Virus record (IMG/VR): IMGVR_UViG_3300037189_012887
Span: 1-64,000 of that record
DNA length: 64,000 bases
Reading direction: 5' to 3' (one strand)
Source: a virus
Shown here: positions 6,322 through 53,331 of the stretch, in pieces
Position numbering within the stretch: the first letter of the stretch is position 1
Layout of the letters: every line of letters starts with the position of its first letter
Notes under the pieces: model-generated
What the model was told of the DNA's origin: nothing
Seen by the model: only the letters and a program-made list of their open reading frames with translations
Database searches by the model: none
Program-made: the position numbers and the translations under genes

Positions 6322-6355
6322 ATTATATTTACTATACTATATATTGCAGTTGTTG

Positions 6356-7417: not shown

Positions 7418-7440
7418 AAAGAAGTTCTCCGTTTATGGTG

Positions 7441-7523: not shown

Positions 7524-7524
7524 A

Positions 7525-7599: not shown

Positions 7600-7612
7600 T
7601 CTAATCTATATA

Positions 7613-8300: not shown

Positions 8301-8302
8301 AA

Positions 8303-8355
8303 GAAAGACTCTGCTGCAATAGGGTTTACGAACTATTTATACAGCAGAGTCTTTC
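8303..8355 (-). promoter_or_regulatory. late promoter inside an RNA hairpin controlling the homing endonuclease
   Basis: A perfect 14-bp inverted repeat (8303-8316 and 8342-8355) flanks a consensus late -10 TATAAATA (8334-8341, minus strand). A read-through transcript would fold and hide the region just before the ATG at 8300. A late transcript starting near 8327 loses one arm and leaves the start open. Confidence 0.8.
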
Positions 8356-9626: not shown

Positions 9627-9634
9627 AGCTTCTC

Positions 9635-12652: not shown

Positions 12653-12670
12653 GACAAACACTCCAAAGAT

Positions 12671-12745
12671 TGGAGCGGACGATGGGATTCGAACCCACGA
12701 CATTTTGCTTGGCAAGCAAAAACTCTACCCCTGAGTTACGTCCGC
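12671..12745 (-). tRNA. tRNA-Gly(GCC)
   Basis: Acceptor GCGGACG/CGTCCGC, loop TTGCCAA (GCC), U73 and encoded CCA. Confidence 0.94.
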
Positions 12746-12783
12746 ATTAAACATATATATCTATAGAGAACAGGAGGATAATT

Positions 12784-13275: not shown

Positions 13276-13276
13276 C

Positions 13277-13351
13277 TGGAGCGGGCGAAGGGGATCGAAC
13301 CCTCGACAGTCAGTTTGGAAAACTGAAGCTCTACCACTGAGCTACACCCGC
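13277..13351 (-). tRNA. tRNA-Gly(TCC)
   Basis: Acceptor GCGGGTG/CGCCCGC, anticodon stem TCAGT/ACTGA with loop TTTCCAA (TCC), encoded CCA. Confidence 0.94.
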
Positions 13352-13361
13352 AAAACTTTAC

Positions 13362-14138
13362 TTACTCTTGTGAATCAACAGTATAGTGGTGCACCCTGTA
13401 ATGCTCACCGTTATCATCGTGATGGTGAGTCGTATGACTATACGTGAGCTTAGTTCCAGCAGGTATAATCGTCTCGTGTTCTCCTTGGTACAGGGAACGG
13501 TTACCTACGTGAAAAGCTTTGTCTTTCGGCTTTAAGTGTACGTGCATTATATCGTATCCACGACTCTGTATTCCCTTTCGCTTTGCAAAATTTCTTGCAA
13601 TGTCTACGTCGTGAGAAGTAGATATGTGTGATGGGGAATAGAGAATCTTTGATTCTTTGGCAGCTTTTTCGCCGACAAAGCGCATTCCAGAATAGACGTG
13701 GGCTTCTCTGCCCATGGGTGTAGATGCAAGACCCGATATTCTTTTATGAATAGCTGCGTCATGTGTGCTTAAACCAGAAGTCGCGGGTAGCCCTTGCTCA
13801 TGATTTGATATAAGAGTTGTGTTTATTCTTGCAGAAGCGTTAGCATTACCATTTCTATTGTATGCGCTGTACTTATGTATGGCATTCTGGTCTTTTTTTT
13901 CCAGTTCACCATGAGACGCGTGAATCTCATCAGACTTCTTCATGAAGTGATCTAGACGACTACCTTCGACGCTCTGTCCAGGAAGAGTATGAAGATGAGA
14001 CGTCTCTGGTCTCGCATCTTCTTTTATTCCGGATCTTTTATCTTTCTTATGAACGATAGATATCGGCTTACTTGGAACTACATGACCATTATGATCTATG
14101 AAATAACCTTTGTCTATGTAGTTCTTAAACGTCAACAT
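13362..14138 (-). CDS. RSE-type ADP-ribosyltransferase with capsid-targeting-like N-terminus
   Basis: A 258-residue protein. The C-terminal half fits arginine-type ADP-ribosyltransferases: arginine in VYSGMRF (R153), the STS strand in HISTSHDVDIARNFA (173-175), and the catalytic ExE pair in YQGEHETIIPAG (E220, E222). The first residues (MLTFKNYIDKG) resemble five other proteins here and the T4 capsid-targeting sequence, so it may be a packaged Alt-like enzyme that modifies host proteins at infection. A late-type promoter lies 33 bases upstream. It lacks the usual acidic residue at the predicted prohead cleavage point. Confidence 0.87.
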   Translation of the reverse strand: MLTFKNYIDKGYFIDHNGHVVPSKPISIVHKKDKRSGIKEDARPETSHLHTLPGQSVEGSRLDHFMKKSDEIHASHGELEKKDQNAIHKYSAYNRNGNANASARINTTLISNHEQGLPATSGLSTHDAAIHKRISGLASTPMGREAHVYSGMRFVGEKAAKESKILYSPSHISTSHDVDIARNFAKRKGIQSRGYDIMHVHLKPKDKAFHVGNRSLYQGEHETIIPAGTKLTYSHTTHHHDDNGEHYRVHHYTVDSQE

Positions 14139-14170
14139 TATGTTCTACTCCTTATGGCTCAAGCTTAAAA

Positions 14171-14178
14171 TATTTATT
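14171..14178 (-). promoter_or_regulatory. late promoter, AATAAATA
   Basis: Near-consensus late element within a short palindrome (AGCTTAA / TTAAGCT), 33 bases upstream of the ADP-ribosyltransferase gene. It overlaps the stop of the upstream gene. Confidence 0.55.
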
Positions 14179-14647
14179 AAGCTACCATGTATTCCTTGAG
14201 CCTGTCAGCCGCATACGAAGCGGCGAAGGCGTTAGGCTTTACCATGGGAACCACGTTGCACATACCCCTGATGTACCCTACGGCCTCGTTGATTACGCAC
14301 GATGAGCCGTGGTGTTCGTCAGGGTTGATGTCGAGATGGACCTCGACGTATCGATCTTCAAGTACCTCGCCGAGTCTCAGGTAGAGCTCAGCGATCTTGT
14401 AGACCTCGTTCATGAGACGCAGCCTAGGCTTACCCTTGACGGTGTCGTAGTCGCGCTCGCGCTGGATCTCACCGAATATCTTGCATCCCCTCTTGCCGTC
14501 CATGTGTACCACTACGACTAACGTGTAGTCGGCGTGCCATTGACCCTTGATGGGAAATCTCTCGGAGTCGCAGCCGATGTAGATCTTCGTCTCCGGTCCG
14601 AGAGTTTCAAGGAACTCCTTTACTTCGTTGACGTCGATCTTCTTCAT
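14177..14647 (-). CDS. RNase H-like fold protein, YkuK/DUF458 family
   Basis: A 156-residue protein. IYIGCDS (about residues 22-28) gives the first acidic residue, FGEIQRERDYD the next, and VEVHLDINPDEHHGSSCVINEAVGYIRG (about 101-128) the third, followed by KPNAFAASYAAD. This order is that of the DUF458 RNase H-like family, whose members lack a settled activity. AGGAGG precedes the ATG. Confidence 0.88.
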   Translation of the reverse strand: MKKIDVNEVKEFLETLGPETKIYIGCDSERFPIKGQWHADYTLVVVVHMDGKRGCKIFGEIQRERDYDTVKGKPRLRLMNEVYKIAELYLRLGEVLEDRYVEVHLDINPDEHHGSSCVINEAVGYIRGMCNVVPMVKPNAFAASYAADRLKEYMVA

Positions 14648-14668
14648 CAGTGCCTCCTGTCTTATATA

Positions 14669-14745
14669 TGGAGGACACGAGAGGACTCAAACCCCTAACC
14701 TCCGCGTTCGTAGCGCGGCGCTCTGTTCAGTTGAGCTACGTGTCC
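14669..14745 (-). tRNA. tRNA-Arg(ACG)
   Basis: Acceptor GGACACG/CGTGTCC, anticodon stem CCGCG/CGCGG with loop CTACGAA (ACG), encoded CCA. Confidence 0.93.
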
Positions 14746-14749
14746 GTTA

Positions 14750-14825
14750 TGGTGCTTGGAGACGGGATCGAACCGCCCACACTCGGTTCTTCAGACCGAT
14801 GCTCTACCAACTGAGCTACTCAAGC
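14750..14825 (-). tRNA. tRNA-Phe(GAA)
   Basis: Anticodon stem TCGGT/ACCGA with loop CTGAAGA (GAA), A73 and CCA; one acceptor mismatch. It directly abuts the stop of the upstream coding gene. Confidence 0.9.
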
Positions 14826-15482
14826 TTATCTCTTCATTAGTTCCTCTACAAAGTCTAGCAATAGACCGTGGTTCTTCTTCTCTATGTCTCCGTTCCATAC
14901 CTTCTTCATCCAGCTGTACTCGGTGTACCAGTGCTTCTGAGCTTCAGGGTGGGAACCTATGAGACCTATCCTGTCTTGATAGCCGGCCATCACGTCACCG
15001 TTTCCATATCTAGCGACCACGTCGAACCGGCCGCTGCCGACGATGCTGCAGCCGTCGTACCAGAACATCTTCTCTTTCTCGTCTTTCCACGTGACTTCTA
15101 GATGCTTGGCGTGCGGCCTTCTCGTATCCGTCTTAGGACGTGCAAGGTACTGTACGCAGTCGCGATTGTCTAAGATGTCTAGGTATTCTTTTCCAGCCCA
15201 GTAGGCGCCCATGCATATGCCGAGATAGCGACCTCCTCTGTTTAAGATGAAGTCTCTTATCACGGGTATATGCCACCTCATGATCATGCTAAACTTAGAT
15301 GCGTCGCCTAGACCTCCAGGAACCGCTATCATCTCGACGTCGTCGAACCAGTCATCATAGAGAATATCTTGTCTAGTAAAGATCTTAAACTGGTAGTACG
15401 GTTGAAGCACGTTCAGTATGCCGTTGACGCCGTGGATCGAGCAGTATGGATGGTCTATGAATAGCGCGATCTTCTTGTTCAT
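14826..15482 (-). CDS. class I glutamine amidotransferase-like protein, BPL_N family
   Basis: A 218-residue protein with a GATase1-like fold. GGRYLGICMGAYWAG (about residues 83-97) carries the nucleophile-elbow cysteine, and GSHPEAQKHW (about 175-184) supplies the late histidine. This pairing is that of the biotin-protein-ligase N-terminal (BPL_N) family, whose substrate is unknown. Its stop codon directly touches tRNA-Phe. Confidence 0.84.
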   Translation of the reverse strand: MNKKIALFIDHPYCSIHGVNGILNVLQPYYQFKIFTRQDILYDDWFDDVEMIAVPGGLGDASKFSMIMRWHIPVIRDFILNRGGRYLGICMGAYWAGKEYLDILDNRDCVQYLARPKTDTRRPHAKHLEVTWKDEKEKMFWYDGCSIVGSGRFDVVARYGNGDVMAGYQDRIGLIGSHPEAQKHWYTEYSWMKKVWNGDIEKKNHGLLLDFVEELMKR

Positions 15483-15503
15483 ATAGTTCTCTGTTTAAGA
15501 TGC

Positions 15504-15578
15504 TGGCACCGGTCCTCAGAATCGAACTGAGTTCTCAAGGTTTTGGAGACCTGCGGATTACCACTTTCCCTGACCGAT
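15504..15578 (-). tRNA. tRNA-Trp(CCA)
   Basis: Acceptor ATCGGTC/GACCGGT, loop CTCCAAA (CCA anticodon), G73 and encoded CCA. Confidence 0.92.
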
Positions 15579-16331
15579 TTAAGCTTTGTAGGAGAACACC
15601 GGTGACTGCTTCTTCACCGCCTCGCTGGTAGTCTTGAACGGCTTGACACCATGTCTCAGGCCTCTCAAGAATCCAGGAAGGTTCTCCCAGTTCGTCTCGG
15701 CGTTCCCCTTCTCGGGGGCCTGAGCATACGTATCCCTGTCACCGACCTCGGCGACGACCAGCGGTGGGTCGACTGCCATGAGGTTCATGCCGAAGGAGTT
15801 GTTGACTCCCATAAGACCGTCCACGTTCATGGTGATGTGGTTGGTGTAGAATATAGCGCCGAGCATCTTCCTAGCCGTCATCGGCGTGATGGCATAGGCG
15901 TGTGTACCCTCGAAGTGGTCTACCTTCTTGAAAGATACCCTCTCGTTAGGTACTGAGTAGTCGTCTCGGTTCCATACGCGCGGGCCGAGCCATAGGATCT
16001 CGCCGTCGTTGACCTTGATGCCGTCGAGTGGTGCCTTGACCACCGCGTCGTGCTCGAGTACCACGGCCGGCTGGTTCTCTTGAATGATCTTCATCCAGAT
16101 AAACATGTGACCGAGTGAGCAGCAGAACTCTCTATGGTACTGACGATCGTCGTCGAAGGTTCCGGGACGACCCATGGTGTACCCGTACTTCTTCGTGATG
16201 TCGGCGTTGAGTAGTCCGTGCACTCCCTCGAAGAGCTCGGCGTCGACACCGTGCTCCTTGCAGGAGGCCAGCGTGTCGAGAGCGTACTTCTTGGAGTCAC
16301 CCTTGTCAATGTATAAGATGTAGGCCTTCAT
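15579..16331 (-). CDS. glycosyltransferase family 25 (LPS-type)
   Basis: A 250-residue protein. The start KAYILYIDKGDSKKYALDTL and the segment CSLGHMFIWMKIIQENQPAVVLEHDAVV (about 70-97) match GT25 enzymes, with the EHDAVV motif as the metal-nucleotide site. MNVDGLMGV (about 167) is the usual D...L block. It would add a sugar to lipooligosaccharide or a similar acceptor. Its stop abuts tRNA-Trp. Confidence 0.87.
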   Translation of the reverse strand: MKAYILYIDKGDSKKYALDTLASCKEHGVDAELFEGVHGLLNADITKKYGYTMGRPGTFDDDRQYHREFCCSLGHMFIWMKIIQENQPAVVLEHDAVVKAPLDGIKVNDGEILWLGPRVWNRDDYSVPNERVSFKKVDHFEGTHAYAITPMTARKMLGAIFYTNHITMNVDGLMGVNNSFGMNLMAVDPPLVVAEVGDRDTYAQAPEKGNAETNWENLPGFLRGLRHGVKPFKTTSEAVKKQSPVFSYKA

Positions 16332-16372
16332 GATTAATCCTCGTCTAGCGTTGTCGTCACTAGTTTATATAT

Positions 16373-16447
16373 TGGTGCAGGAAGTTGGAGTCGAACCAAC
16401 CTTAAAAGCCTTATGAGGACTCCTCGACACCTTGCCGACCTACCTGC
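16373..16447 (-). tRNA. tRNA-Met(CAT)
   Basis: Anticodon loop CTCATAA (CAT), acceptor GCAGGTA/TTCCTGC with one mismatch, A73 and CCA. A CAT anticodon could also be a modified isoleucine tRNA. Confidence 0.85.
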
Positions 16448-16452
16448 GTCGT

Positions 16453-16527
16453 TGGTACTGTCTACTGGTATCGATCCAGTTCTACGAGTGCCACAAACTC
16501 GTGTGCAACCTTTAACACTTAGACAGC
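16453..16527 (-). tRNA. tRNA-His(GTG)
   Basis: Anticodon stem CGAGT/ACTCG with loop TTGTGGC (GTG), acceptor GCTGTCT/AGACAGT and CCA. The T loop starts with A, and C73 is not seen. Confidence 0.85.
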
Positions 16528-16528
16528 A

Positions 16529-16602
16529 TGGTTGTCCTACTTGGTTACGATCCAAGGTCTCGCGATTATCAGTCGCGTGCTCTCCCATTGAGCTATAGGA
16601 CA
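16529..16602 (-). tRNA. tRNA-Ile(GAT)
   Basis: Acceptor TGTCCTA/TAGGACA, stem GCGA/TCGC with loop CTGATAA (GAT), A73 and CCA. Confidence 0.92.
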
Positions 16603-16608
16603 ATGAAC

Positions 16609-16670
16609 TGGGCGGGAGAGAAGGACTCGAACCTTCAAGCTGCAGCTACTGTTTCCAGACAGCTCTCCCG
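16609..16670 (-). tRNA. tRNA-Ser(GGA)-like element lacking a D arm
   Basis: A 62-base element. Acceptor CGGGAGA/TCTCCCG, T arm GAAGG-TTCGAGT-CCTTC and CCA are perfect, and CTGT/ACAG encloses a GGA-containing loop followed by a short self-paired segment (AGCTGCAGCT) in the variable position. No D arm fits between acceptor and this stem. It is either a truncated tRNA or an armless functional one. Confidence 0.5.
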
Positions 16671-16674
16671 AGGT

Positions 16675-16743
16675 TGTCGCTGGTCCGATTCGAACGGTGT
16701 CCTAGTGTTGACCATCTGCACTTCCCACAGTACTGACAGCGAC
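16675..16743 (-). pseudogene. degenerate tRNA-like element
   Basis: A perfect 7-bp acceptor stem (GTCGCTG/CAGCGAC), a D stem (GTAC/GTGC) and a T loop (TTCGAAT) are visible, but no anticodon stem-loop of normal geometry forms and the T stem is weak. Best read as a decaying tRNA gene. Confidence 0.5.
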
Positions 16744-16841
16744 TCAATGTAGCGGCTCTTTTCTCTAATCACTCCCGATAGATGCTGGCCAGCATAGGGC
16801 ATAGAGGTCTGAACGGTGGACGCCACCCTTTCACTACAATA

Positions 16842-16890
16842 TGGTGCCGGATGTCGGGATTGAACTGACGACCTACCGCTTCCTAGCACT
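16842..16890 (-). pseudogene. 3' half of a tRNA interrupted by the HNH gene
   Basis: The T arm and 3' acceptor strand (ATCCGGC, A73, CCA at 16842-16852) are present, preceded by a loop-like CTAGGAA. The sequence upstream is the HNH gene instead of a D arm. The matching 5' strand GCCGGAT followed by TAGCTC occurs at 17382-17394, beyond the HNH gene and tRNA-Thr. Confidence 0.6.
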
Positions 16891-17256
16891 GTTTTTATTT
16901 TTAGCTCTAAATGTGTCCGTTTGAGAATGACAGTTAGGACACAAGAACTCTAAATTCTCTAATATGTTATTGGATGCATTTCCATCAATATGATGGACTT
17001 CTAAAGTTATATCTTTCTCGAGCCAAGACTCTATTTTACAACTTTCACATTTATAACCTTTTTTATCGATCAATAAACGTCTAGACCATCCTCTAATTTG
17101 GAAAAGTTGACCACTGTTTTTACCATCTAAAAAACTTTGCATTTTATTTTTAGACTGATATTCATGCTGACATGAATTATTGCAGTATTTTTTACCGCGT
17201 AAGTTCTTTCTTCCTTTAGTTGGAATAAGCTCGTTGTTACAGTTTAGACAGTGCAT
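16873..17256 (-). CDS. HNH homing endonuclease
   Basis: A 127-residue free-standing HNH nuclease. The core LEVHHIDGNASNN (about residues 87-99) with LEFLCPNCHSQ (about 105) gives the H-N-H metal site, and CESC, CLNC and CNNSC cysteine pairs form zinc knuckles. It is very AT-rich and its stop lies within the 3' half of a broken tRNA, so it arrived by insertion in the tRNA array. Confidence 0.92.
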   Translation of the reverse strand: MHCLNCNNELIPTKGRKNLRGKKYCNNSCQHEYQSKNKMQSFLDGKNSGQLFQIRGWSRRLLIDKKGYKCESCKIESWLEKDITLEVHHIDGNASNNILENLEFLCPNCHSQTDTFRAKNKNSARKR

Positions 17257-17311
17257 TGTGTTTCCTTGTAAAGCATTTACTATATTTATAATGCTTTACA
17301 TTTAATAGTAC

Positions 17312-17385
17312 TGGTGCTCCCACTTAGAATCGAACTAAGAACTGATGCTTACAAGGCAACTGTTATACCATTTAACTATAAGAGC
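17312..17385 (-). tRNA. tRNA-Thr(TGT)
   Basis: Acceptor GCTCTTA/TGGGAGC with G-T pairs, D arm GTTA/TAAC, loop CTTGTAA (TGT), A73 and CCA. Confidence 0.87.
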
Positions 17386-17400
17386 TAATCCGGCATAATA

Positions 17401-17493
17401 TGGTGGGTGAGGTTGGATTCGAACCAACAGTGTTTACCTATAAGGACCGGATTTACAGTCCGGGGATGCACACGCCGTAGCATCAACTCACCC
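17401..17493 (-). tRNA. tRNA-Tyr(GTA)
   Basis: Class II tRNA with long variable arm; anticodon stem CCGGA/TCCGG with loop CTGTAAA (GTA); acceptor GGGTGAG/CTCACCC; A73 and CCA. Confidence 0.94.
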
Positions 17494-17500
17494 ATTGTAT

Positions 17501-17575
17501 TGGCGACCCGTAGGGGTTTCGAACCCCTCTAACTCGTTAGACAGACGAGTATCCACACCAGCTGATTCACGGACC
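17501..17575 (-). tRNA. tRNA-Asp(GTC)
   Basis: Stem CTCGT/ACGAG with loop CTGTCTA (GTC), G73 and CCA; acceptor has two G-T pairs. The upstream small gene ends inside its 5' strand. Confidence 0.92.
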
Positions 17576-17758
17576 TTTATTCTTTAACCATTCCTGATAA
17601 TCTTTTTGATTATCTACATTAAAGAAAACATTTTTAGTTTCTAAAATAGAAAGGTTCTTATAAACTTCTTTATAATACTTATTGCATAAGAGCATAAGAG
17701 TTTGATGAATTAACAAGTTTACATCTTTATCTCCAGTAATGGAAGCTATTTTAGTCAT
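17567..17758 (-). CDS. small AT-rich hypothetical protein
   Basis: A 63-residue protein with no recognised domain. GAGGAG lies 9 bases before the ATG, so it is likely translated. Its codons are strongly AT-biased like the two homing endonuclease genes, and its stop overlaps tRNA-Asp by 9 bases. It may be cargo or a remnant of a mobile unit. Confidence 0.65.
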   Translation of the reverse strand: MTKIASITGDKDVNLLIHQTLMLLCNKYYKEVYKNLSILETKNVFFNVDNQKDYQEWLKNKGP

Positions 17759-17786
17759 TCTAATTACTCCTCAATGGCGCCGCCGA

Positions 17787-17870
17787 AACATTCGTCTAAC
17801 CTCATGTCTTCACGGTAGCTAACTCCGTTACTAGCTAGGTAGGACTTCAGAGGTCCGTGTCTCGAATGTT
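17787..17870 (-). ncRNA. candidate structured RNA between tRNA genes
   Basis: An 84-base segment closed by a perfect 8-bp stem (AACATTCG/CGAATGTT) with inner pairing (CTAGCT region). It does not fold as a tRNA. Position recalls T4 RNA C and D, stable non-tRNA products of the T4 tRNA cluster. Confidence 0.35.
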
Positions 17871-17882
17871 CCAGCGATTAGT

Positions 17883-17959
17883 TGGAGGGGAAGATGGGAT
17901 TCGAACCCACATTCCAAGGTTTTGCAGACCTCGCAGTAGCCATTCCTGCACACTTCCCC
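17883..17959 (-). tRNA. tRNA-Cys(GCA)
   Basis: Acceptor GGGGAAG/CTTCCCC, loop CTGCAAA (GCA), U73 as in cysteine tRNAs, and CCA. Confidence 0.92.
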
Positions 17960-18055
17960 ATGAATAGCCACCGTACTTCCATTCGTCAATGGAGATCACC
18001 TGTTGATTCAGGTTCCTGATGTTGCGCTTCGTCGAGAGGCGTAGGCGGTGAATAA
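17960..18055 (-). ncRNA. candidate structured RNA between tRNA genes
   Basis: No gene is visible in these 96 bases. The minus strand can form a closing CACCG/CGGTG stem and an inner hairpin TCCATT/AATGGA. Function unknown. Confidence 0.3.
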
Positions 18056-18132
18056 TGGCTCCGGGAGTTGGAATCGAACCAACCTGATGAACAGATTAAC
18101 AGTCTGCTGTCCCACCTTGTGACCGTCCCGGA
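18056..18132 (-). tRNA. tRNA-Asn(GTT)
   Basis: Acceptor TCCGGGA/TCCCGGA, stem CAGA/TCTG with loop CTGTTAA (GTT), G73 and CCA. Confidence 0.93.
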
Positions 18133-18144
18133 ATAAATCTTATC

Positions 18145-18423
18145 TTACTGACTCGGCTTCTTGTCGTCGTAGCCGAGCCACTTCTTTACGGCTCCAACTG
18201 CCTGCTTACCAAGTCTAGCGCCGTAGGTGGCGCCGAGACCGACAGCTATCGGCTCGGTAACCGGAGCGGCAGGACCACCCAGTGAACCTAGAGCGGCACC
18301 AGCTGCGGCACCTGCAGCTCCACCTACTACCTTACCTGTAGTGGTGGCTAGGTCGTCCTCGTCGTCGTCCTCGTCGACTACCTTTTTATTTCCGGTCTTA
18401 GTAAATTCTCTAAAAGACTTCAT
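18145..18423 (-). CDS. small glycine-zipper protein with capsid-targeting-like N-terminus
   Basis: A 92-residue protein. It opens MKSFREFTKTG, close to the other capsid-targeting-like starts, then has an acidic run (DEDDDEDD), then a long Gly/Ala zipper (about residues 33-72) that could insert in a membrane, and a basic tail. A perfect late promoter lies about 25 bases upstream. An alternative ATG lies one codon earlier. It could be a packaged membrane-active protein. Confidence 0.75.
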   Translation of the reverse strand: MKSFREFTKTGNKKVVDEDDDEDDLATTTGKVVGGAAGAAAGAALGSLGGPAAPVTEPIAVGLGATYGARLGKQAVGAVKKWLGYDDKKPSQ

Positions 18424-18448
18424 CATCGATCCTCTGCGTCGGTCGACT

Positions 18449-18456
18449 TATTTATA
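18449..18456 (-). promoter_or_regulatory. late promoter, TATAAATA
   Basis: Perfect T4-type late -10 element, about 25 bases upstream of the glycine-zipper gene. Confidence 0.75.
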
Positions 18457-18462
18457 GACCGA

Positions 18463-18584
18463 GATGAAAGCGAGGGTTTTGTTGTGTCAGGATGACCCTC
18501 AAACCCCGGACCGACAGCCCATCTCACATTTCGTCGGTCGCGGAAGCGGAAGCAGCACATGGAGCGCCGATGAGTCCGCTGTAT
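18463..18584. other. gene-free stretch in the tRNA array
   Basis: I see no convincing gene, tRNA fold or repeat here. A 62-codon minus-strand frame starting at 18611 reads through tRNA-Lys and is not convincing. Confidence 0.4.
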
Positions 18585-18661
18585 TGGTGATCCCCCTTGG
18601 ACTCGAACCAAGGACCCGCTGATTAAGAGTCAGCTGCTCTAACCAACTGAGCTAGGGGATC
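18585..18661 (-). tRNA. tRNA-Lys(CTT)
   Basis: Acceptor GATCCCC/GGGGATC, stem CTGA/TCAG with loop CTCTTAA (CTT), A73 and CCA. A CATAAATA late-type element lies just upstream at 18669-18676. Confidence 0.94.
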
Positions 18662-18691
18662 AAAGATTATTTATGATCCCCTCTGAGTAGC

Positions 18692-18934
18692 TCAGACGAG
18701 ACCGGCAGCCAGTGCCTTGTAGCCTGCTGCGATGACCTTACGCGAAGCCGAGCCGAGACGATAGCGTGACGTCTTGCCTGACTTGTTGAGATAGATCGGA
18801 TAACCCTGCATACGAAGTGTCGAGACAGTCGCGGTCGGGTTGGCTACGTTGAAGCGAGAAGCGATCTGCTTCGATGTAAGCTCTTCACCGGACTTGAATG
18901 CTTCGAGTACGCGCTGTGTTGCAGAAGTCGTCAT
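18692..18934 (-). CDS. helix-turn-helix (winged) protein
   Basis: An 80-residue protein. TSKQIASRFNVANPTATVSTLRMQG (about residues 18-42) reads as a winged-helix recognition unit followed by IYLNK...RYRLG as the wing. It may regulate phage or host transcription. Start at 18934 is set by GGAG 9 bases upstream; an earlier ATG is part of that site. It has its own early promoter. Confidence 0.8.
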   Translation of the reverse strand: MTTSATQRVLEAFKSGEELTSKQIASRFNVANPTATVSTLRMQGYPIYLNKSGKTSRYRLGSASRKVIAAGYKALAAGLV

Positions 18935-18983
18935 TAGTATGTTCTCCATTACGATTAAACTCGTGGGCTCTTCCCACTATCTA

Positions 18984-19012
18984 ATACTACCATAGTTTAG
19001 ATTACTTGTCAA
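18984..19012 (-). promoter_or_regulatory. early sigma70-type promoter
   Basis: TTGACA (complement at 19007-19012) and TAGTAT (complement at 18984-18989), spacer 17; drives the HTH gene. Confidence 0.8.
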
Positions 19013-19022
19013 CTAGAAAGAT

Positions 19023-19098
19023 TGGCGCTCCCAACCGGATTTGAACCGGTGTGATCCGCGTGAGAGGCGGGTATCCTAGGCCGCTAGATGATGGGAGC
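19023..19098 (-). tRNA. tRNA-Glu(CTC)
   Basis: Acceptor GCTCCCA/TGGGAGC, loop CTCTCAC (CTC), G73 and CCA. Confidence 0.93.
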
Positions 19099-19104
19099 GG
19101 ATAT

Positions 19105-19181
<77 letters not shown>

Positions 19182-19188
19182 ATTATAC

Positions 19189-19265
19189 TGGCGCGGCGTA
19201 TCGGACTCGAACCGATATTGTTCTCCTTGAAAGGGAGGATTCCTATGCCGTTAGAAGAACGCCGC
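19189..19265 (-). tRNA. tRNA-Glu(TTC)
   Basis: Acceptor GCGGCGT/ACGCCGC, stem CTCC/GGAG with loop CTTTCAA (TTC), G73 and CCA. A 128-base stretch without visible genes separates it from tRNA-Val(GAC). Confidence 0.93.
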
Positions 19266-19393
19266 TTGTTCATAAATATCGTCGTATGATGTTAAGGTGG
19301 CACGACGAGGATAGTAGACCAGAGTCTTTTCCACCTTTCGATTCTGGGCTCAACGAATTGGCAGTCGAGTACTCGAATCGTCTCATACAAACT

Positions 19394-19468
19394 TGGTGCA
19401 TCCTGCAGGGATTGAACCTACGACCTCTACGATGTCAACGTAGCGCTCTACCGCTAAGCTAAGGATGC
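19394..19468 (-). tRNA. tRNA-Val(GAC)
   Basis: Acceptor GCATCCT/AGGATGC, stem CTACG/CGTAG with loop TTGACAT (GAC), A73 and CCA. Confidence 0.94.
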
Positions 19469-19477
19469 GTTGTCTAT

Positions 19478-19553
19478 TGGTGATCACTCTGGGACTCGAA
19501 CCCAGCACATGCAAGTTAAAAGCTTGCCGCTCTACCAACTGAGCTAAGTGATC
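19478..19553 (-). tRNA. tRNA-Lys(TTT)
   Basis: Acceptor GATCACT/AGTGATC, stem GCAAG/CTTGC with loop CTTTTAA (TTT), A73 and CCA. Confidence 0.94.
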
Positions 19554-20053
19554 GAGTTAGTTGGCATTTGTTCTGTTTGATGATCGATGATCAACCGCAT
19601 TCCTACCATCTCCGTAGGTGCTTCACCGGCAGTGCCACGCTGCCACGATTAGTTGTTTGGCTACTAGTGGGACTGGCATCCCTCGTTCGTGTCCCTGCCA
19701 GAGGACACAGATACCAGCGCGCTGGCCAGTACCGTCCAAATCCTATTGTCTCTGCAAAGATACTACATAGAATCGAATTTCGGAGTCGGGTGCTTCCCTT
19801 CCTTAGCCATTGATCGGGTTGTCTCAGGATGGCAAGATGGCCCTATCATCCGTAGTGCATGCGTCCATGCACGATACCCCGTGTAGTATCCGTGGAGAGA
19901 CAACAATTGTCTCTGCAAGGATACACCGCACCTGCAACAGTGCCTACGCTGCTCGTTGCAGAGCTTATAAGCCATAGCACCGCAGTCGTGTATCCGTGGA
20001 GAGACAACCGAAGTTGTCTTTCGTTTAACGATGTCAATCAGCCATTCAGATTA
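19554..20053 (-). ncRNA. 500-base untranslated leader with repeated hairpins
   Basis: No credible gene is present. The minus-strand transcript from the promoter at 20061-20089 would start here and enter the tRNA array. Near-repeats centred at about 19735-19770, 19885-19930 and 19985-20025 share a TTGTCTCT...GGATAC core; the middle one forms a long hairpin (GTATCC/GGATAC enclosing AGAGACAA/TTGTCTCT). These may be processing or regulatory structures. Confidence 0.5.
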
Positions 20054-20060
20054 TATTAAG

Positions 20061-20089
20061 ATAGTACCATAGTCTGAATTATTTGTCAA
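20061..20089 (-). promoter_or_regulatory. early promoter upstream of the tRNA array
   Basis: TTGACA (complement 20084-20089), spacer 17, TACTAT (complement 20061-20066). No coding gene lies immediately downstream, so it probably transcribes the untranslated leader and tRNAs. Confidence 0.85.
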
Positions 20090-20100
20090 CTGAAAAGAGA

Positions 20101-20133
20101 AGGGGCGCCTCACTCTTTACTGTGGGCGCCCCT
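20101..20133 (-). terminator. stem-loop terminator
   Basis: AGGGGCGCC (20101-20109) pairs with GGCGCCCCT (20125-20133) around a 15-base loop. On the minus strand it is followed by TCTCTTTTC. It isolates the upstream two-gene unit from the tRNA-array promoter. Confidence 0.7.
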
Positions 20134-20272
20134 TGAACTTACTCTTCTGAGTCAAAGATTCAAGATCGCCCTCGCGTTGGTTCGCGACCATTATCCCATG
20201 TCTGGGCAATGACGCAGAACGCGCTCGGCATGCTATACGGAAGAGGGTGTTTAACTGTTGTGTTCATACTTT

Positions 20273-20280
20273 TATTTATA
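20273..20280 (-). promoter_or_regulatory. late promoter-like TATAAATA
   Basis: Perfect late element in the minus direction, followed by about 140 bases and the terminator at 20101-20133. That unit contains a 35-codon frame starting at 20266 without a ribosome site. It may specify a short late RNA. Confidence 0.4.
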
Positions 20281-20285
20281 CGACA

Positions 20286-20465
20286 TCAACTTAAAAAGTC
20301 GACGATGTTTCCATTTTTATCTACTGCTCGCACCTGCCACTTCTTAGAGGTCTTGAGCTCTTGCATGAGCTGACGGATGCGCTGTGAGTTACCCGCTGGT
20401 GTGTCGCTGTACGTACGCCAGATGCCCATAGGGTCACACGCCTGTATCTTTACGTAGTCTATCAT
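20286..20465 (-). CDS. small hypothetical protein
   Basis: A 59-residue protein (starts MIDYVKIQACDPMG, ends GNIVDFLS) of unknown function. GGAGGGG lies just before the ATG, and the start overlaps the upstream stop by ATGA, so it is very likely translated as the second gene of an early pair. Confidence 0.75.
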   Translation of the reverse strand: MIDYVKIQACDPMGIWRTYSDTPAGNSQRIRQLMQELKTSKKWQVRAVDKNGNIVDFLS

Positions 20466-20866
20466 CCCCTCCGTGAACGTGACCCCAGCCCAGTCTTATC
20501 CGACTCAGGACTGAAGTACATGGTAGGTCCCTTGTTGTACGCGACCGTGGTACGCTGAGCCTTCTCAAGGATGGCCTTCTGTACCTCGGGCTTCTCCTTG
20601 TGCAGGTTCTCCATGATGCCGCGCTTGAAGCCGTTGCCGACGCCGTTGGACAGCTCGTACTTGGTCTCGACGCGCAGGTCAGGCAGAGCGATGGTGTGCT
20701 TGCCCTTGAATGCTCGCTGCAAGTTACGCTGCTCGGGATGCAGGCCGCGGTCGCGCAGCCACTGATCGTGCTTAGCGGTAGACTCAGCGAGCTTCTTGCT
20801 CTTGGACGGCTTGCGCTTGGTCGAGCCGGTGGTCGTGAAGTATACTGGTGCTAGATGCATTGACAT
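20462..20866 (-). CDS. hypothetical basic protein
   Basis: A 134-residue basic protein of unknown function. The start at 20866 has GAGGA 7 bases upstream. It contains a Lys/Arg-rich segment (about residues 12-22) and a Gly/Arg-rich end. It has its own early promoter and is coupled to the next gene. Confidence 0.72.
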   Translation of the reverse strand: MSMHLAPVYFTTTGSTKRKPSKSKKLAESTAKHDQWLRDRGLHPEQRNLQRAFKGKHTIALPDLRVETKYELSNGVGNGFKRGIMENLHKEKPEVQKAILEKAQRTTVAYNKGPTMYFSPESDKTGLGSRSRRG

Positions 20867-20888
20867 GGCTAAATCCTCATTATGATAT

Positions 20889-20917
20889 ATCATACCACAG
20901 GTTGGATTATTTGTCAA
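20889..20917 (-). promoter_or_regulatory. early sigma70-type promoter
   Basis: TTGACA (complement 20912-20917), spacer 17, extended -10 TGG-TATGAT (complement 20889-20894). Confidence 0.87.
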
Positions 20918-20925
20918 CTAAAAAG

Positions 20926-21000
20926 TGGTAGTCCGAGAGGGGATCGAACCCCCGACCTTCTCCGTGTAAAGGAGCTGCGCTACCGCTGCGCCATCGGACC
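20926..21000 (-). tRNA. tRNA-Val(TAC)
   Basis: Acceptor GGTCCGA/TCGGACT, stem CTCC/GGAG with loop TTTACAC (TAC), A73 and CCA. Confidence 0.92.
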
Positions 21001-21004
21001 ATCG

Positions 21005-21082
21005 TTGGTGATCACGGCATGACTCGAACATGCGACCCCGAATTTAGGAAATTCGTGCTCTATCCTGCTGAGCTACGTGACC
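21005..21082 (-). tRNA. tRNA-Arg(CCT)
   Basis: Acceptor GGTCACG/CGTGATC, stem CGAAT/ATTCG with loop TTCCTAA (CCT), A73 and CCA. Confidence 0.92.
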
Positions 21083-45940: not shown

Positions 45941-46152
45941 ACTGCGAAGTAGTCAAGTGGAACGACCGAAAGTTCTCAGTAGTCGAGAAGAGGACAGAAT
46001 GCATACTATCTGACTTTCCTAACCACAAAGATGCTAAGAACTACGCTAGGTTCTTAAACATGGGTGGTGGGTTTGACGGGTGGACTCCCTTCTTTATTTT
46101 GAAAAAAATTAATGTAGATGAGCTAGAAAATACGAGAGACTCGTATAAATAA
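45937..46152 (+). CDS. small hypothetical protein
   Basis: A 71-residue protein of unknown function coupled to gp41 by ATGA. Strand-helix layout with FPNHKDAKNYARFLNMGGGFDGWTPFF. Confidence 0.77.
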   Translation: MNCEVVKWNDRKFSVVEKRTECILSDFPNHKDAKNYARFLNMGGGFDGWTPFFILKKINVDELENTRDSYK

Positions 46153-46189
46153 CTTCATGATTATATTTTTTGATCATCTCGACGTGTTT

Positions 46190-46310
46190 GTGTCTGCAGC
46201 ACAAGTGGCAAGCCGTAAGGATTGGAATTGACAGGTCGCCGTCTAGGTAGGTGGGGTTCCTCCTGTCCGCGTTGTTAAAGCAAGGGAAGCTCGAAAGGGC
46301 TTCCCTTTTT
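46190..46310 (+). ncRNA. candidate small RNA ending in a terminator
   Basis: Gene-free segment between gp41 and the virion block. It has pairing GACAGG/CCTGTC (about 46230-46269) and a strong terminator at 46282-46310. No start signal is certain, so it may equally be a 3' end structure. Confidence 0.4.
46282..46310 (+). terminator. intrinsic terminator
   Basis: AAGGGAAGC (46282-46290) pairs with GCTTCCCTT (46299-46307) and is followed by Ts. Confidence 0.9.
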
Positions 46311-46315
46311 TATTA

Positions 46316-46323
46316 GATAAATA
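46316..46323 (+). promoter_or_regulatory. late promoter, GATAAATA
   Basis: One mismatch from the consensus, 34 bases upstream of the virion-block first gene. Confidence 0.55.
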
Positions 46324-46356: not shown

Positions 46357-47304
46357 ATGAAGTCTTTTAAGAGCTTTATCACCGAAGGCATAAGACAGGG
46401 TCTTCCTCACATCACTACTATGGACCATAACCAGATAAGCGATCTGGTTCACGGTGGAAAAGTCAAGATAGATCAGGCGACTGAGAAGACTGACGGATCT
46501 ACCATGATGATGGGCCACGACGAGCATGGATTCTATACACAGAGTTCGGGTTCCGGTGACGAGAGGATGAGGGAGCCCGCCGACTATATCGATAGAGCCA
46601 AGAGACGAGCTGAACAGACTGGTAAGCCTCTCGACCTGACCGCCGCTAACGCGTTCGGCGAGGCACATGCTCAGATGCAGGGCAACAAGAACCTTACCGA
46701 CCATCTTAAGCAGAGGGCTGAAGAGTCCGGCGGTGAGACCAAGGTCCGCGGTGAGCTATTCTCCAAGAGACTCTCCCGACCTTCTGAGACTCCTGGCGAG
46801 ATCAAGTTCGTCGGAACGTCTTACGACCCCAGCCACATGGGCAGCACCGGAAAGTTCGTCATCCATACCAAGCTCCCAGAGAACCAAGGACACGATGTCG
46901 AGAAGTTTAAGAACGAGTTGTCTACTCCCGGACTCAACTTCGACGACGACAACATCAAGGGCTTCAAGCCAAGCGAGATCGATGTCGCCAAGGAAGCCAA
47001 GGACCTCGGCAGCGTGAACAGGGAGCTCCTCTCTTCTAGGACTACCCCTAAGAACAAGGCTGCTAAGGAAGCCGAGAACGAGAAGCTGATGGAGATCAAG
47101 AAGAGGGTCTCCGACAAAGTCGACACACACATCAAGTCTCAAGGATTCTCTCCTAAGTGGGGTTCAGGATCCGAGGGTATCGTAGTCCACCCACCTAAGA
47201 ACTCGACAGCACCAAGATTCAAAGTAACGTCTGACGCATTCAGGGAGTACAAGGCTGACCCTGAGAACGCGAAGAAGTTCAAAGAAAGGACCCCGAAGCA
47301 ATGA
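46357..47304 (+). CDS. ligase-type nucleotidyltransferase with capsid-targeting-like N-terminus
   Basis: A 315-residue protein. The start MKSFKSFITE closely resembles the T4 capsid-targeting sequence MKTYQEFIAE, including an I-x-E cleavage point. The rest shows covalent nucleotidyltransferase motifs in order: EKTDGST (motif I, K44), RGELFS (about 131), SEGIVVHPP (motif IV, E273) and RFKVTS (motif V, K289). These are features of RNA/DNA ligases and capping enzymes. It starts a coupled three-gene set (ATGA overlap with the next) behind a late promoter. Ligase activity is inferred from motifs. Confidence 0.8.
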   Translation: MKSFKSFITEGIRQGLPHITTMDHNQISDLVHGGKVKIDQATEKTDGSTMMMGHDEHGFYTQSSGSGDERMREPADYIDRAKRRAEQTGKPLDLTAANAFGEAHAQMQGNKNLTDHLKQRAEESGGETKVRGELFSKRLSRPSETPGEIKFVGTSYDPSHMGSTGKFVIHTKLPENQGHDVEKFKNELSTPGLNFDDDNIKGFKPSEIDVAKEAKDLGSVNRELLSSRTTPKNKAAKEAENEKLMEIKKRVSDKVDTHIKSQGFSPKWGSGSEGIVVHPPKNSTAPRFKVTSDAFREYKADPENAKKFKERTPKQ

Positions 47305-48785
47305 TCACTTTCAAGAACTTCATACTCAAAGAAGGCGGCAACATCAAGGTCAAGACCGTCGACGGCGAGGTAGCTGCGGCTCCGTTCAAGGTCAAGGACA
47401 GGTCAAAGCAGGCAGGCGATATCAAGGACGCTCTCGGAGCCATGCACGACTCCTTTAGTAAGGAGCACGGAGCAGACCTCTTTGGTAAAGGTAAGAAGGC
47501 ACTTAATTCAGGTTCAATGTTTGCTGGCTCGACTCGTCAGTTCATGGACTCCAGTATCCCTGATGATGAGTTCAAGAAGCACAAGCCGATCGTCGGCGAC
47601 ATCGACGCACAGTTCCCAGCTGAGCACAAGGACAAGCTAGTTACACACCTGACTCCTGGACGCAAGTTCGGTAAGTATACTGTAATCGGTACAAGGAAGC
47701 ACGGCACCGAGGTCTCTGCGGTAATCAAGCACGACAACGGCGAGCACCATCAGGTCGACTTTGAGCCAGTTCACTATCATAACGATGAGCCGACTCCAGG
47801 CGAGCAGCTTTTGCACAACTCATCATGGGAAGACACTAAGGCCGGCATAAAGGGTCTCCACCACAAGGTGCTCCTCAACGCAACGGGTCTCGACCACCAT
47901 AAGTTCTCTATCAGCCACGGACTAAGGTCTAGGTCTGATGAGTCAGACATGGGAGTCAAGGAACCTGAGCAGGTCACATCGGGACTGTTCGGCAAGAAAG
48001 CAGATCCGAGCAAGATAACGTCATTCCAGGGCGTAACGCAGCTCATCAAGAAGCACATCCCTAAGGAACAGCATCAGGCCATCTACGAGAAGTTCAGGGA
48101 CAGCGTAAGCAAGATGAAGGGTACCGACCACTCGGCAGCCCTAGCCCACCTCAGACAGCATCTGGACGTCAAGGACGCCGTCAGCGAGGAGAGCATGGGC
48201 GACCAGCACGCCTCGGCCATCCCTATGGTAGGTTTCAGCCCGATCTCTCACATGGGACACGCGCAGGACCTCGGCGGAGCGCTGAAAAAGCTTCCGGGAT
48301 CAAAGCACATCGGCATCTCCTCTAAGGCTGACGCTTTCTCTCCCGAAGAGAGAAAGTCTATCCTTAGCAGACAGTGGGGCGACACCGACAACAATCACGT
48401 CCATATCGTAGGCGGTGCAGGCGAGACTATCAGGAGAGCCCATGACTCGATGACTGGTCCTGGAAGAAAGATCCTACATATTCTCGTAGGTAAGGACAGG
48501 GCATCGTTTGCCGAGGGTCTCAAGAAGTCACTCGAGCAGGGCAAGATAAAGGAGATGGAGGGTCGCAAGTTCGACGAGGTCCACGTTCACTATCCCGAGG
48601 ATACCGAGCGGACCCACGGCATGAGCGGTACTAGGATGAGGGCGGCGGCTAACGAGGACGGCAAGGATGCCGCCGACGAGTTCCACCGCCACTTAGGTTC
48701 GATGTTCAGTCGCGATGAGTCGAACAACATCAAGAGCAAGATCAAGGCAGGAATCCAGTCAGGTAAGATCCCACTTAAGAGGTAA
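47301..48785 (+). CDS. dual nucleotidyltransferase (Pol-beta-like plus HxGH) with capsid-targeting-like N-terminus
   Basis: A 494-residue protein. The start MITFKNFILKE fits the capsid-targeting pattern. Residues about 70-200 contain AGSTRQF...GDIDAQF (G76, D100, D102) and a later acidic VDFEP (D153), as in Pol-beta-fold nucleotidyltransferases. Residues about 310-455 contain SHMGHAQDL (HxGH, 317-320) and MSGTRMRAA (STxxR-type end motif), as in cytidylyl/NMN adenylyltransferases. Substrates unknown. Overlaps the upstream gene by ATGA. Confidence 0.75.
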   Translation: MITFKNFILKEGGNIKVKTVDGEVAAAPFKVKDRSKQAGDIKDALGAMHDSFSKEHGADLFGKGKKALNSGSMFAGSTRQFMDSSIPDDEFKKHKPIVGDIDAQFPAEHKDKLVTHLTPGRKFGKYTVIGTRKHGTEVSAVIKHDNGEHHQVDFEPVHYHNDEPTPGEQLLHNSSWEDTKAGIKGLHHKVLLNATGLDHHKFSISHGLRSRSDESDMGVKEPEQVTSGLFGKKADPSKITSFQGVTQLIKKHIPKEQHQAIYEKFRDSVSKMKGTDHSAALAHLRQHLDVKDAVSEESMGDQHASAIPMVGFSPISHMGHAQDLGGALKKLPGSKHIGISSKADAFSPEERKSILSRQWGDTDNNHVHIVGGAGETIRRAHDSMTGPGRKILHILVGKDRASFAEGLKKSLEQGKIKEMEGRKFDEVHVHYPEDTERTHGMSGTRMRAAANEDGKDAADEFHRHLGSMFSRDESNNIKSKIKAGIQSGKIPLKR

Positions 48786-48790
48786 GGTAG

Positions 48791-49396
48791 ATGAAGAGCT
48801 TCAGCGAGTACATCATAGAGAACAGCGTACACTTCTTCGACGTCGACAAGACGCTGATGGACACGGGTAGTACTCACGTGCACGTCAAGGACGAGAACGG
48901 CAATACCGTGCAGAAGCTCGACCCGCAGGAGTACAACCATCACAAGCTGCAGCCCGGTCACAGCTACGACTTCCACGAGTTCAAATCATCCGATAAGTTC
49001 GCCAAGTCAGCAAAGCCTATCCGCAAGGTGCTGGCTAAGATGAAGGCTATCAAGAAGAACGGCGGTAGGACTGAGATCTTAACTGCCCGCGCTGACTTCG
49101 ACGACAAGGACAAGTTCGCTAAGAAGTGGAAGTCTTTCGGTGTCGACATCGGTCCAGGTCAGACCCACGTCAGGCGAGCCGGTAACATCAAGCTTCCAAC
49201 TCACGAGGCTAAGGCTAAGATCATATCTGATCAGATCAAGAAGAACGGATATAAGAAAGTTCACCTGTACGACGATCACTTACCTAACATACAATCGATG
49301 ATGGACCTCAAGAAAGATCATCCCGACGTCGAGTTCCACGGATATCACGTAAAGCACGGTCCCGATGGCGTGACCATGGACCACTACAAGGCATAA
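48791..49396 (+). CDS. HAD-family phosphatase with capsid-targeting-like N-terminus
   Basis: A 201-residue protein. MKSFSEYIIEN is the capsid-targeting-like opening. HAD motif I is FFDVDKTLMDT (D17, D19), motif II TEILTARAD (about 95) and motif IV KKVHLYDDHLPN (about 157). It lacks a big cap domain, like polynucleotide 3'-phosphatases, which would fit a nucleic-acid end-repair role beside the ligase-like gene, but a sugar or nucleotide substrate is equally possible. Confidence 0.8.
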   Translation: MKSFSEYIIENSVHFFDVDKTLMDTGSTHVHVKDENGNTVQKLDPQEYNHHKLQPGHSYDFHEFKSSDKFAKSAKPIRKVLAKMKAIKKNGGRTEILTARADFDDKDKFAKKWKSFGVDIGPGQTHVRRAGNIKLPTHEAKAKIISDQIKKNGYKKVHLYDDHLPNIQSMMDLKKDHPDVEFHGYHVKHGPDGVTMDHYKA

Positions 49397-51640: not shown

Positions 51641-52492
51641 ATGCTAAGAAAGAACGATCTCCCTAGTCCTCAGCTAGAATTGGTTGAGCATGGCGCAGGA
51701 GATGTCGTAGTCCTCACCGACAAGATCAAGCTCTCCCTATACAAGAAGTCTAAATCCAGCGGGTTCGACACGGACACGCTAGAAGAAGTGTACCTTCGTG
51801 GGCTCGAGAGCTTCTATTCACTATACGAGAGCGTCGAGATCACAGAGACGCCAGAACAGTACGCATTCAACAGGGTTAACTCATTTATAGCGGGTGGAGC
51901 TGCAGCAGAGATGGATAAAGATCTACAAGAGAAGCGCGGCCTTTGGGACAACATCCACGCCAAGCGCGAGAGAATCAAGCACGGTTCTGGCGAACACATG
52001 AGAAAGCCTGGATCAAAGGGAGCCCCTACTGCTGATGACTTTAGATCGTCACAGGTCAAGGAAGGCGAGACCCAGTCCAAGGATCAAGACGACCCGAGCT
52101 CAAGGTTCGTCGGCACAGACTCACTGGTCAACATCTACAAGAAAGACACTCCTGGCTACATCGACACCATCAAGAAGACGGTTCGTGAGTCGGTCGAGAG
52201 GTCTGAGTGTGAGAACGGTACCTGCCCATGCATGGTCAATGAGGCCAAGTTTCAGGGCAGAGAGGTACCACTCAACAAGCCTATGAAGGGCGACGTCAAG
52301 AAGTCAAAGGTGTTCGTCAAGGATCCATCGACTGGAAACGTTAAGAAGGTAAACTTCGGCGACAAGACCCTCAGCATCAAGAAGAACCAGCCAGCTCGCA
52401 AGCGCTCCTACTGCGCACGCTCGAGTGGACAGGGTAACCTCACAGACAAGACCAAGGCTAACTACTGGTCACGTCGCGCTTGGGACTGCTGA
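51641..52492 (+). CDS. DUF5872-type conserved phage protein
   Basis: A 283-residue protein. The C-terminal 80 residues (REVPLNKPMKGDVKKSKVFV, then RKRSYCARSSGQ and NYWSRRAWDC) are the widespread T4-like module with paired cysteines. A CPCM cluster precedes it. N-terminal half is helical. Virion association is likely from its place. Confidence 0.82.
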   Translation: MLRKNDLPSPQLELVEHGAGDVVVLTDKIKLSLYKKSKSSGFDTDTLEEVYLRGLESFYSLYESVEITETPEQYAFNRVNSFIAGGAAAEMDKDLQEKRGLWDNIHAKRERIKHGSGEHMRKPGSKGAPTADDFRSSQVKEGETQSKDQDDPSSRFVGTDSLVNIYKKDTPGYIDTIKKTVRESVERSECENGTCPCMVNEAKFQGREVPLNKPMKGDVKKSKVFVKDPSTGNVKKVNFGDKTLSIKKNQPARKRSYCARSSGQGNLTDKTKANYWSRRAWDC

Positions 52493-52493
52493 A

Positions 52494-52649
52494 ATGAAGA
52501 AGTTTAGAGAATATATAGCTGAGCTGGACGTCAGAGACGCTTCTGGTAAAGTTATACATATAAAGAAGGTACCGATCAGAATGGCTGACGGCACCATCAA
52601 GATGAAAGATCCCGGTAAGAGCGGAAGCTCCGGCGGGGGTGGAAAATAA
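52494..52649 (+). CDS. 51-residue protein with capsid-targeting-like N-terminus
   Basis: MKKFREYIAEL is the closest match in the window to the T4 capsid-targeting sequence, including IAE. The remainder (VRDASGKVIHIKKVPIRMAD, then a Gly/Ser tail) is basic and small, like T4 internal proteins. The frame starts one base after the upstream stop. Confidence 0.75.
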   Translation: MKKFREYIAELDVRDASGKVIHIKKVPIRMADGTIKMKDPGKSGSSGGGGK

Positions 52650-52896: not shown

Positions 52897-53331
52897 ATGA
52901 ATGAACTCATCGAGAAGATGAAGGTACTTCAGGCCAGCGTCTTCTCGCTGTACTTGAAGGCCCACTACTTTCACTGGAACGTTGAGGGACCAAACTTCCC
53001 TCAATATCATGAGTTCCTTGGTAACCTATATGAAGAGATCTTTGGCTCGATCGACACGATAGCCGAGGAGACTAGGACTCTTGGAGCCTATGCTCCAGGA
53101 TCGTTCAAGCGCTTCTCTGAGCTGACCCTCGTCGAGGACGAGCTCAACGTGCCTGATCCTCTGAGGATGATGAAGATCCTTCAGATGGACAACATGATCG
53201 TCATCGGGGAGTTGAAGAAGGCTAGAGAGCTCGCCGACACAAACGGTGCTTTCGGCTTGGTTAACTTTCTCGAAGACAGACTAGACAAGCACTGGAAACA
53301 CAACTGGATGCTGACATCCATTATCAAGTAA
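52897..53331 (+). CDS. Dps-family ferritin-like protein
   Basis: A 144-residue four-helix protein. AHYFHWNVEGPNFPQYHEFLG (about residues 22-42) and SIDTIAEETRTLGAYAPG (about 51-68) carry the inter-subunit ferroxidase residues (His, His, Asp, Glu) of Dps. Bacterial Dps forms 12-mers that bind iron and DNA and protect from peroxide. A phage version in the late block may protect DNA during assembly or entry. Confidence 0.9.
   Translation: MNELIEKMKVLQASVFSLYLKAHYFHWNVEGPNFPQYHEFLGNLYEEIFGSIDTIAEETRTLGAYAPGSFKRFSELTLVEDELNVPDPLRMMKILQMDNMIVIGELKKARELADTNGAFGLVNFLEDRLDKHWKHNWMLTSIIK

Follow-up and report, generated by a model that had tools for sequence, protein, structure and literature searches.

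Our analysis favours, at somewhat better than even chances, the reading that three adjacent genes of this virus encode a nucleic-acid repair set carried in the virion and delivered with it, most likely for tRNAs or other RNAs cut by the host. The genes lie in the window, by which we mean the whole 64,000-nucleotide stretch analysed, itself part of a 150,648-base virus record that also holds T4-type homologues of uvsX, gp41 helicase, gp43 polymerase, gp17, gp18, gp19, gp20, gp21, gp22, gp23 and gp55. After uvsX and gp41 come directly the ligase, Pol-beta/HIGH and HAD genes (Table 1), and the three open reading frames, with an ATGA overlap joining the first two (47301-47304), are present where the first-pass annotation had placed them. 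Comparison with the near relative L001 gave dN/dS values of 0.071, 0.075 and 0.033 for the three genes (about 0.03-0.08), so the proteins are under strong purifying selection. The catalytic residues that the annotation had singled out (K44, D100/D102, H317/H320 and D17/D19) are likewise kept in homologues, being invariant in alignments of 21, 15 and 22 sequences. Elsewhere in the window, 27 tRNA genes covering most amino acids occupy the minus strand (5462-21082), and a probable Dps/ferritin-like protein, judged by eye, is encoded directly after the cluster (52897-53331).

Table 1. Positions, in window coordinates, of the repair-set genes, their domains and predicted processing signals, and nearby elements.
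Feature	Position	Strand	Details
T4-type late promoter TATAAATA	46144..46151	+	Upstream of short putative RNA; exact genome-wide motif
Late-promoter-like element GATAAATA	46316..46323	+	33 nt before ligase start; one mismatch to TATAAATA
Ligase ORF; KxDG ligase-superfamily nucleotidyltransferase, RNA-ligase-like	46357..47304	+	315 aa; invariant motifs, AlphaFold, Foldseek
Ligase putative capsid-targeting signal MKSFKSFITE	46357..46386	+	Register F4/F7/I8/E10; predicted cleavage after E10 (I-T-E)
Pol-beta + HIGH ORF	47301..48785	+	494 aa
Pol-beta putative capsid-targeting signal MITFKNFILKE	47301..47333	+	Predicted cleavage E11/GGN (L-K-E)
Pol-beta-type nucleotidyltransferase domain	47334..48155	+	Residues 12-285; GS...GDID...HQVDF; motifs, profile match, weak Foldseek
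Pol-beta/HIGH interdomain linker	48156..48206	+	[LIVM]-x-E kept in relatives, as V-S-E in this phage; possible second protease cut
HIGH-superfamily nucleotidyltransferase domain	48207..48785	+	HMGH...SGTRMR; phrog_395, Foldseek
HAD ORF; HAD-superfamily phosphatase, accessory set member	48791..49396	+	201 aa; motifs, phrog_415
HAD putative capsid-targeting signal MKSFSEYIIE	48791..48820	+	T4 register F4/Y7/I8/E10
51-aa protein, signal MKKFREYIAE	52494..52649	+	Glycine-rich end KSGSSGGGG; passes capsid-targeting test

To evaluate the putative targeting signals, we relied on the T4 internal protein IPIII, whose first ten residues are enough for targeting to the capsid; positions 4 and 7 are important in the targeting step, 8 and 10 in processing, and T4 gp21 cleaves after L/I-x-E (PMC9026906). 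This register rule was applied to all ATG starts of the genome. Calibration on T4 itself returned 5 of 1303 starts (IPII, IPIII, the hypothetical gp61.1 and two false ones) and missed IPI and Alt, so the test is specific rather than sensitive. In the genome under study 5 of 1315 starts pass, namely those of the ligase, Pol-beta/HIGH and HAD genes, the reading frame at 52494 and one internal methionine, which argues that the capsid-targeting-like starts proposed by the first-pass annotation are not due to chance. Residues 1-14 of the ligase and 1-12 of the Pol-beta/HIGH protein are disordered in the AlphaFold models, and among relatives the strict test is passed by 38 of about 48 non-truncated unique ligases, most of the others having visible variants of the signal. 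Judging from its sequence, the 51-aa protein is a probable fourth packaged product; L016 and L017 have a comparable mini-gene separating HAD from ligase, and a tail like its own is fused to HAD in L070. Just before it, the window encodes a protein with a weak DUF6321 match (51641-52492), and a similar protein of L016 has a capsid-targeting-like signal. Two further observations concern other genomes: T4 gp61.1 (L086, 18966-19130), annotated as hypothetical, begins MKTFKEFIKE, a full match to the rule, and near the HAD genes of L042 (5684-6124), L043 and L047 lies a gene whose product looks Nudix-like by eye and begins with a peptide resembling a capsid-targeting signal.

The predicted cleavage sites are conserved as well. 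L/I-x-E stands directly before GGN in 15/15 members of the Pol-beta alignment and just before the conserved body in 19/21 ligases, the background chance of such a site within five positions being about 2%. Fusions of ligase and Pol-beta (L011, L028, L108) have lost the internal signal and kept IME/GGN, LRE/GGN or LNE/GGN (slash, predicted cut), while the separate HIGH genes of several relatives often carry a signal of their own. The untagged Pol-beta homologues of Va1, X1, Mendera and L221 start MGGN, so that the predicted cleavage would recreate the same GGN N-terminus. Less securely, a second cut may fall in the linker between Pol-beta and HIGH, where [LIVM]-x-E is found in 15/15 alignment members (strictly L/I in 8) and residues 294-299 are disordered in the model (pLDDT <50). 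The genome encodes homologues of the gp21-type prohead protease (129596-130015 of the record, E 2e-23) and of the gp22 scaffold (E 8e-7), and L-T-E occupies the maturation position in the gp23 that this phage encodes. The set thus resembles T4-type internal proteins in its N-terminal signals and cleavage sites, with a gp21-type protease and scaffold in the same genome, and from these sequence features we infer that the three enzymes would be packaged, cleaved and ejected with the DNA. The case for packaging is firmer than the first-pass annotation could make it.

The late-gene status suggested by the first-pass annotation is supported by an excess of TATAAATA in the genome (17 exact copies against 2.0 expected), by the exact and one-mismatch copies ahead of the ligase, and the gp55 homologue encoded in the genome is a late sigma factor homologue. 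Because a terminator-like hairpin (~46280-46311) separates the two upstream elements, the promoter nearest to the ligase is GATAAATA rather than the perfect copy. TATAAATA or AATAAATA occurs at a comparable position in L006, L012, L013, L018, L023 and L028. From the perfect promoter to the strong terminator hairpin runs a predicted transcript of ~160 nt (46152-46311). This possible RNA is predicted to fold just moderately better than shuffled sequences do (z -2.4), matches no Rfam family and, of the 21 upstream regions compared, turned up in no more than two, those of the window and of near-identical L001; on these grounds we dropped it as a substrate or guide.

Evaluating the enzymes themselves, we found ligase motifs I (K44, EKTDG), III, IV (EGxV) and V (K) to be invariant across the 21-sequence alignment. 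The AlphaFold model (pLDDT 89.6) matched TbREL1 best in Foldseek searches of the PDB, followed by LigIV and T4 Rnl1; TbREL1 was the only match with E <0.001, and nearly all others were ligases or capping enzymes. In a viral structure library the close matches were unnamed and the named ones mostly RNA ligase. These results bear out the proposed KxDG ligase with an RNA-ligase-like core, a diverged one given that TM-scores to PDB entries are low overall (~0.3). The Pfam RNA_ligase profile (PF09414) scored 14.7 bits, under its curated cut-off of 27, with a best relative at E 0.0024. Only 26 residues remain after motif V (K289), so the protein would have no OB domain, and neither PF01068 nor PF01653 matches anywhere in the genome, which sets it apart from the known DNA ligase families; gp30 has no match there either. 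Neither the window ligase nor a diverged ligase found a match among annotated phages. Single-sequence and profile searches against PDB sequences returned nothing useful, the ferritin matches being noise.

The second gene carries the double nucleotidyltransferase originally proposed, with the HIGH fold supported, the Pol-beta fold weakly so, and the catalytic residues invariant. Pol-beta motifs GS76-77, D100, D102 and the third aspartate D153 do not vary in the 15-sequence alignment, the family profile matches the homologues of Va1, X1, Mendera and CP220 (E 5e-29), and Foldseek gave weak matches to FAM46, JHP933 and a terminal U-transferase (best E 0.02-0.05). The aspartate triad and profile thus point to the Pol-beta superfamily, with the modelled fold lending weak agreement. 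Membership in RlaP was ruled out, as PF10127 has no match anywhere in the genome; T4 nrdC.11, taken as a candidate member of that family, gave E 0.32. In the HIGH half, H317-x-G-H320 and SGTxxR are invariant in the same alignment, phrog_395 (cytidyltransferase) matches at E 5e-4, and Foldseek returned PPAT and NadD with probabilities up to 1.00 and TM ~0.6 by target. Its counterpart in X1 matches CTP_transf_like (E 1e-6), and in several relatives the domain is a separate gene.

All motifs of the predicted compact HAD phosphatase, D17/D19/T21 (DxDxT), T98 and D161/D162, are invariant in the 22-sequence alignment, in agreement with the first-pass assignment. The protein matches phrog_415 (polynucleotide kinase) at E 1e-5, remains under the Pfam cut-off, and has a weak local match to T4 PseT (E 1.5e-3), while its relatives reach E 1e-5 against Acid_phosphat_B. 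The window HAD has no match among annotated phages, and a diverged HAD matched one uncultured phage.

Linkage in relatives was counted at loci found by the ligase alone and clustered at 90% identity, to leave a non-redundant set. This revealed Pol-beta directly downstream of the ligase in 31/31 loci and HIGH near it in 27/27, which supports membership of one functional set. The three-gene unit as first described is not conserved, however, since HAD lies near the ligase (within 6.5 kb) in only 8/24 loci; it is often present without a ligase, and HIGH and HAD genes also pair without one. The obligate core is therefore ligase, Pol-beta and HIGH nucleotidyltransferase, and HAD, rejected as a core member, is accessory. 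The core occurs as three genes, as Pol-beta+HIGH, as ligase+HIGH, or with all three fused. Untagged triads are found in Vibrio phage Va1, Xanthomonas phage X1, Stenotrophomonas phage Mendera and two virus lineages from metagenomes. The latter, L216 and L221, lie outside the clade of the window phage, have the genes for Pol-beta, ligase and HIGH consecutive or almost so, and match the window family by profile (ligase E 8e-8, HIGH E 1e-5). Va1, X1 and Mendera hold the same three families, adjacent or nearly, with ligases recognised by motif only; those of X1 and Mendera gave no significant match to the window-family profile (E 0.3), and by sequence L221 and L216 appear to bridge this gap. Three untagged triads have an extra gene between Pol-beta and ligase (L076 6846-7850, L084 9911-10855, L221 7005-8171), and the extra proteins of X1 and Mendera show no mutual similarity.

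A P-loop kinase domain of AAA_33/zeta type joins the set in L028 and L215, where it would supply a 5' kinase if the domain acts on RNA; no 5' kinase was found adjoining the set in the window phage. The L028 protein (7044-13652) is 2202 aa long, starts with a capsid-targeting-like signal and combines ligase, Pol-beta, HIGH, an HExxH-like segment, the P-loop kinase (Zeta_toxin/AAA_33), DUF5872 and DUF6321. L206, L211 and L215 have a tagged Pol-beta and, in the stretch examined, no recognised ligase; downstream of that Pol-beta lie genes for P-loop ATPases or kinases whose N-termini carry signals of a similar kind.

In the reading that we favour, the enzymes would be expressed from late T4-like genes and loaded into the prohead through their N-terminal signals, which the gp21-type protease would trim, exposing the mature N-termini before delivery with the genome. 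The core would bring together an RNA-ligase-like sealer of nicks or breaks, a Pol-beta-type terminal nucleotidyltransferase and the HIGH nucleotidyltransferase, helped here by a HAD 3'-phosphatase. Most likely it would at once mend tRNAs or other RNAs that host defence ribonucleases have cut, with HAD removing 3' phosphates, Pol-beta restoring lost nucleotides and the ligase sealing, while the HIGH enzyme may serve in end activation or cofactor supply. The repair role and the RNA substrate are both inferred, RNA being preferred over DNA because the ligase has no OB domain and matches RNA ligases in fold, and because tRNA genes number 27 in this phage. RNA repair has no recognised step for a HIGH domain, and this is the main gap in the RNA-repair reading.

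That known T4 internal proteins act against restriction enzymes at DNA entry (PMC12373910, PMC3012670), and that no other DNA ligase family was detected in the genome, would suit a packaged kit, somewhat like the LigD set of polymerase, ligase and phosphatase, that mends nicks or breaks of the incoming phage DNA such as restriction cuts or packaging ends. We consider this unlikely, since the stretch of the ligase beyond motif V is just 26 residues long and leaves no room for an OB domain, most of its viral structure library matches that carry a name are RNA ligases, neither Ku nor a primase-polymerase was noticed as a partner among the ORFs of the window, and the HIGH enzyme would be left unexplained. 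Another possibility is that the packaged proteins act against immune signalling by making or destroying a small molecule, for instance NAD+ or a nucleotide signal. In its favour, PPAT and NadD are the fold matches of the HIGH enzyme, the corresponding domain of Va1 is similar to a phage NMN adenylyltransferase (phrog_3462, E 4e-7), HIGH and HAD genes co-occur without ligase, and packaging of phage NAD+ enzymes has been proposed (PMC9503650). Such enzymes are hard to square with an obligate ligase partner, in some relatives a fused one, whose motifs I, III, IV and V are intact, or with the lack of any identified NAD+-binding Ia domain or NadV partner beside the set, and we rate them slightly less probable again.

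Untagged triads in other phages must work after synthesis, and the genes here might similarly act within the host cell late in infection, the N-terminal peptide having no use in packaging. The exact T4 targeting register, the late promoters, the protease site kept even in fusions and the tags gained by each split gene make this quite improbable.

Comparison with described systems clarifies which parts of the proposed virion-delivered repair set are new. T4 IPI, IPII and IPIII are internal proteins with a capsid targeting sequence (PMC9026906, PMC12373910), and they share with this set a 10-residue N-terminal signal with aromatics at 4 and 7, L/I-x-E cleavage and T4-like late genes; they are small restriction inhibitors, however, whereas the cargo here is predicted to be linked nucleotidyltransferases and a phosphatase. 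T4 PseT (Pnkp) and RnlA mend anticodon-nuclease cuts with a phosphatase and a ligase, and the window HAD weakly matches PseT, but they are made after infection, have neither capsid signal nor Pol-beta or HIGH, and RnlA and the window ligase are at most distantly related (E 0.12-0.16). The untagged triads of Va1, X1 and Mendera comprise the same three enzyme families (Pol-beta by homology, ligase by motif) without the signal, and are annotated as hypothetical or cytidyltransferase. Packaged polyvalent proteins are effectors of several domains whose entry together with phage DNA is predicted, and the 2202-aa protein of L028 resembles one, whereas the set otherwise consists mostly of separate genes or protease-cleavable fusions; within the part of that account considered here, the ligase/Pol-beta/HIGH repair combination was not found among them (PMC5512222).

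The first-pass annotation knew of no described system of this make-up, which goes too far. A phage RNA repair syntax of ATP-grasp RNA ligase, RlaP Pol-beta and HAD phosphatase has been published (PMC7824862) and shares the ligase, Pol-beta nucleotidyltransferase and HAD phosphatase with our set, but here Pol-beta is not RlaP by Pfam, HIGH is obligate, packaging is predicted and the cluster has no kinase in this phage. Our literature search, outside which lay the 2016 RNA-repair review of Burroughs and Aravind, returned no description of packaged repair ligases or of the HIGH partner, so that, to the extent of that search, this partner and the predicted delivery in the capsid are new. We put at a little under even the chance that a virion-carried RNA repair complex, with optional phosphatase and kinase and in some phages a polyprotein cut by the prohead protease, repairs tRNAs before phage expression as a new counter-defence. 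If this is true, the phage would be mending damage rather than blocking the attacker, whereas the T4 proteins known to be injected act by inhibiting restriction or by modifying proteins of the host. It would also account for a gene triad that several phage lineages conserve but that has no name, and it would make testable both the repair of host-cut tRNAs at phage entry and the processing of enzyme polyproteins by the prohead protease.
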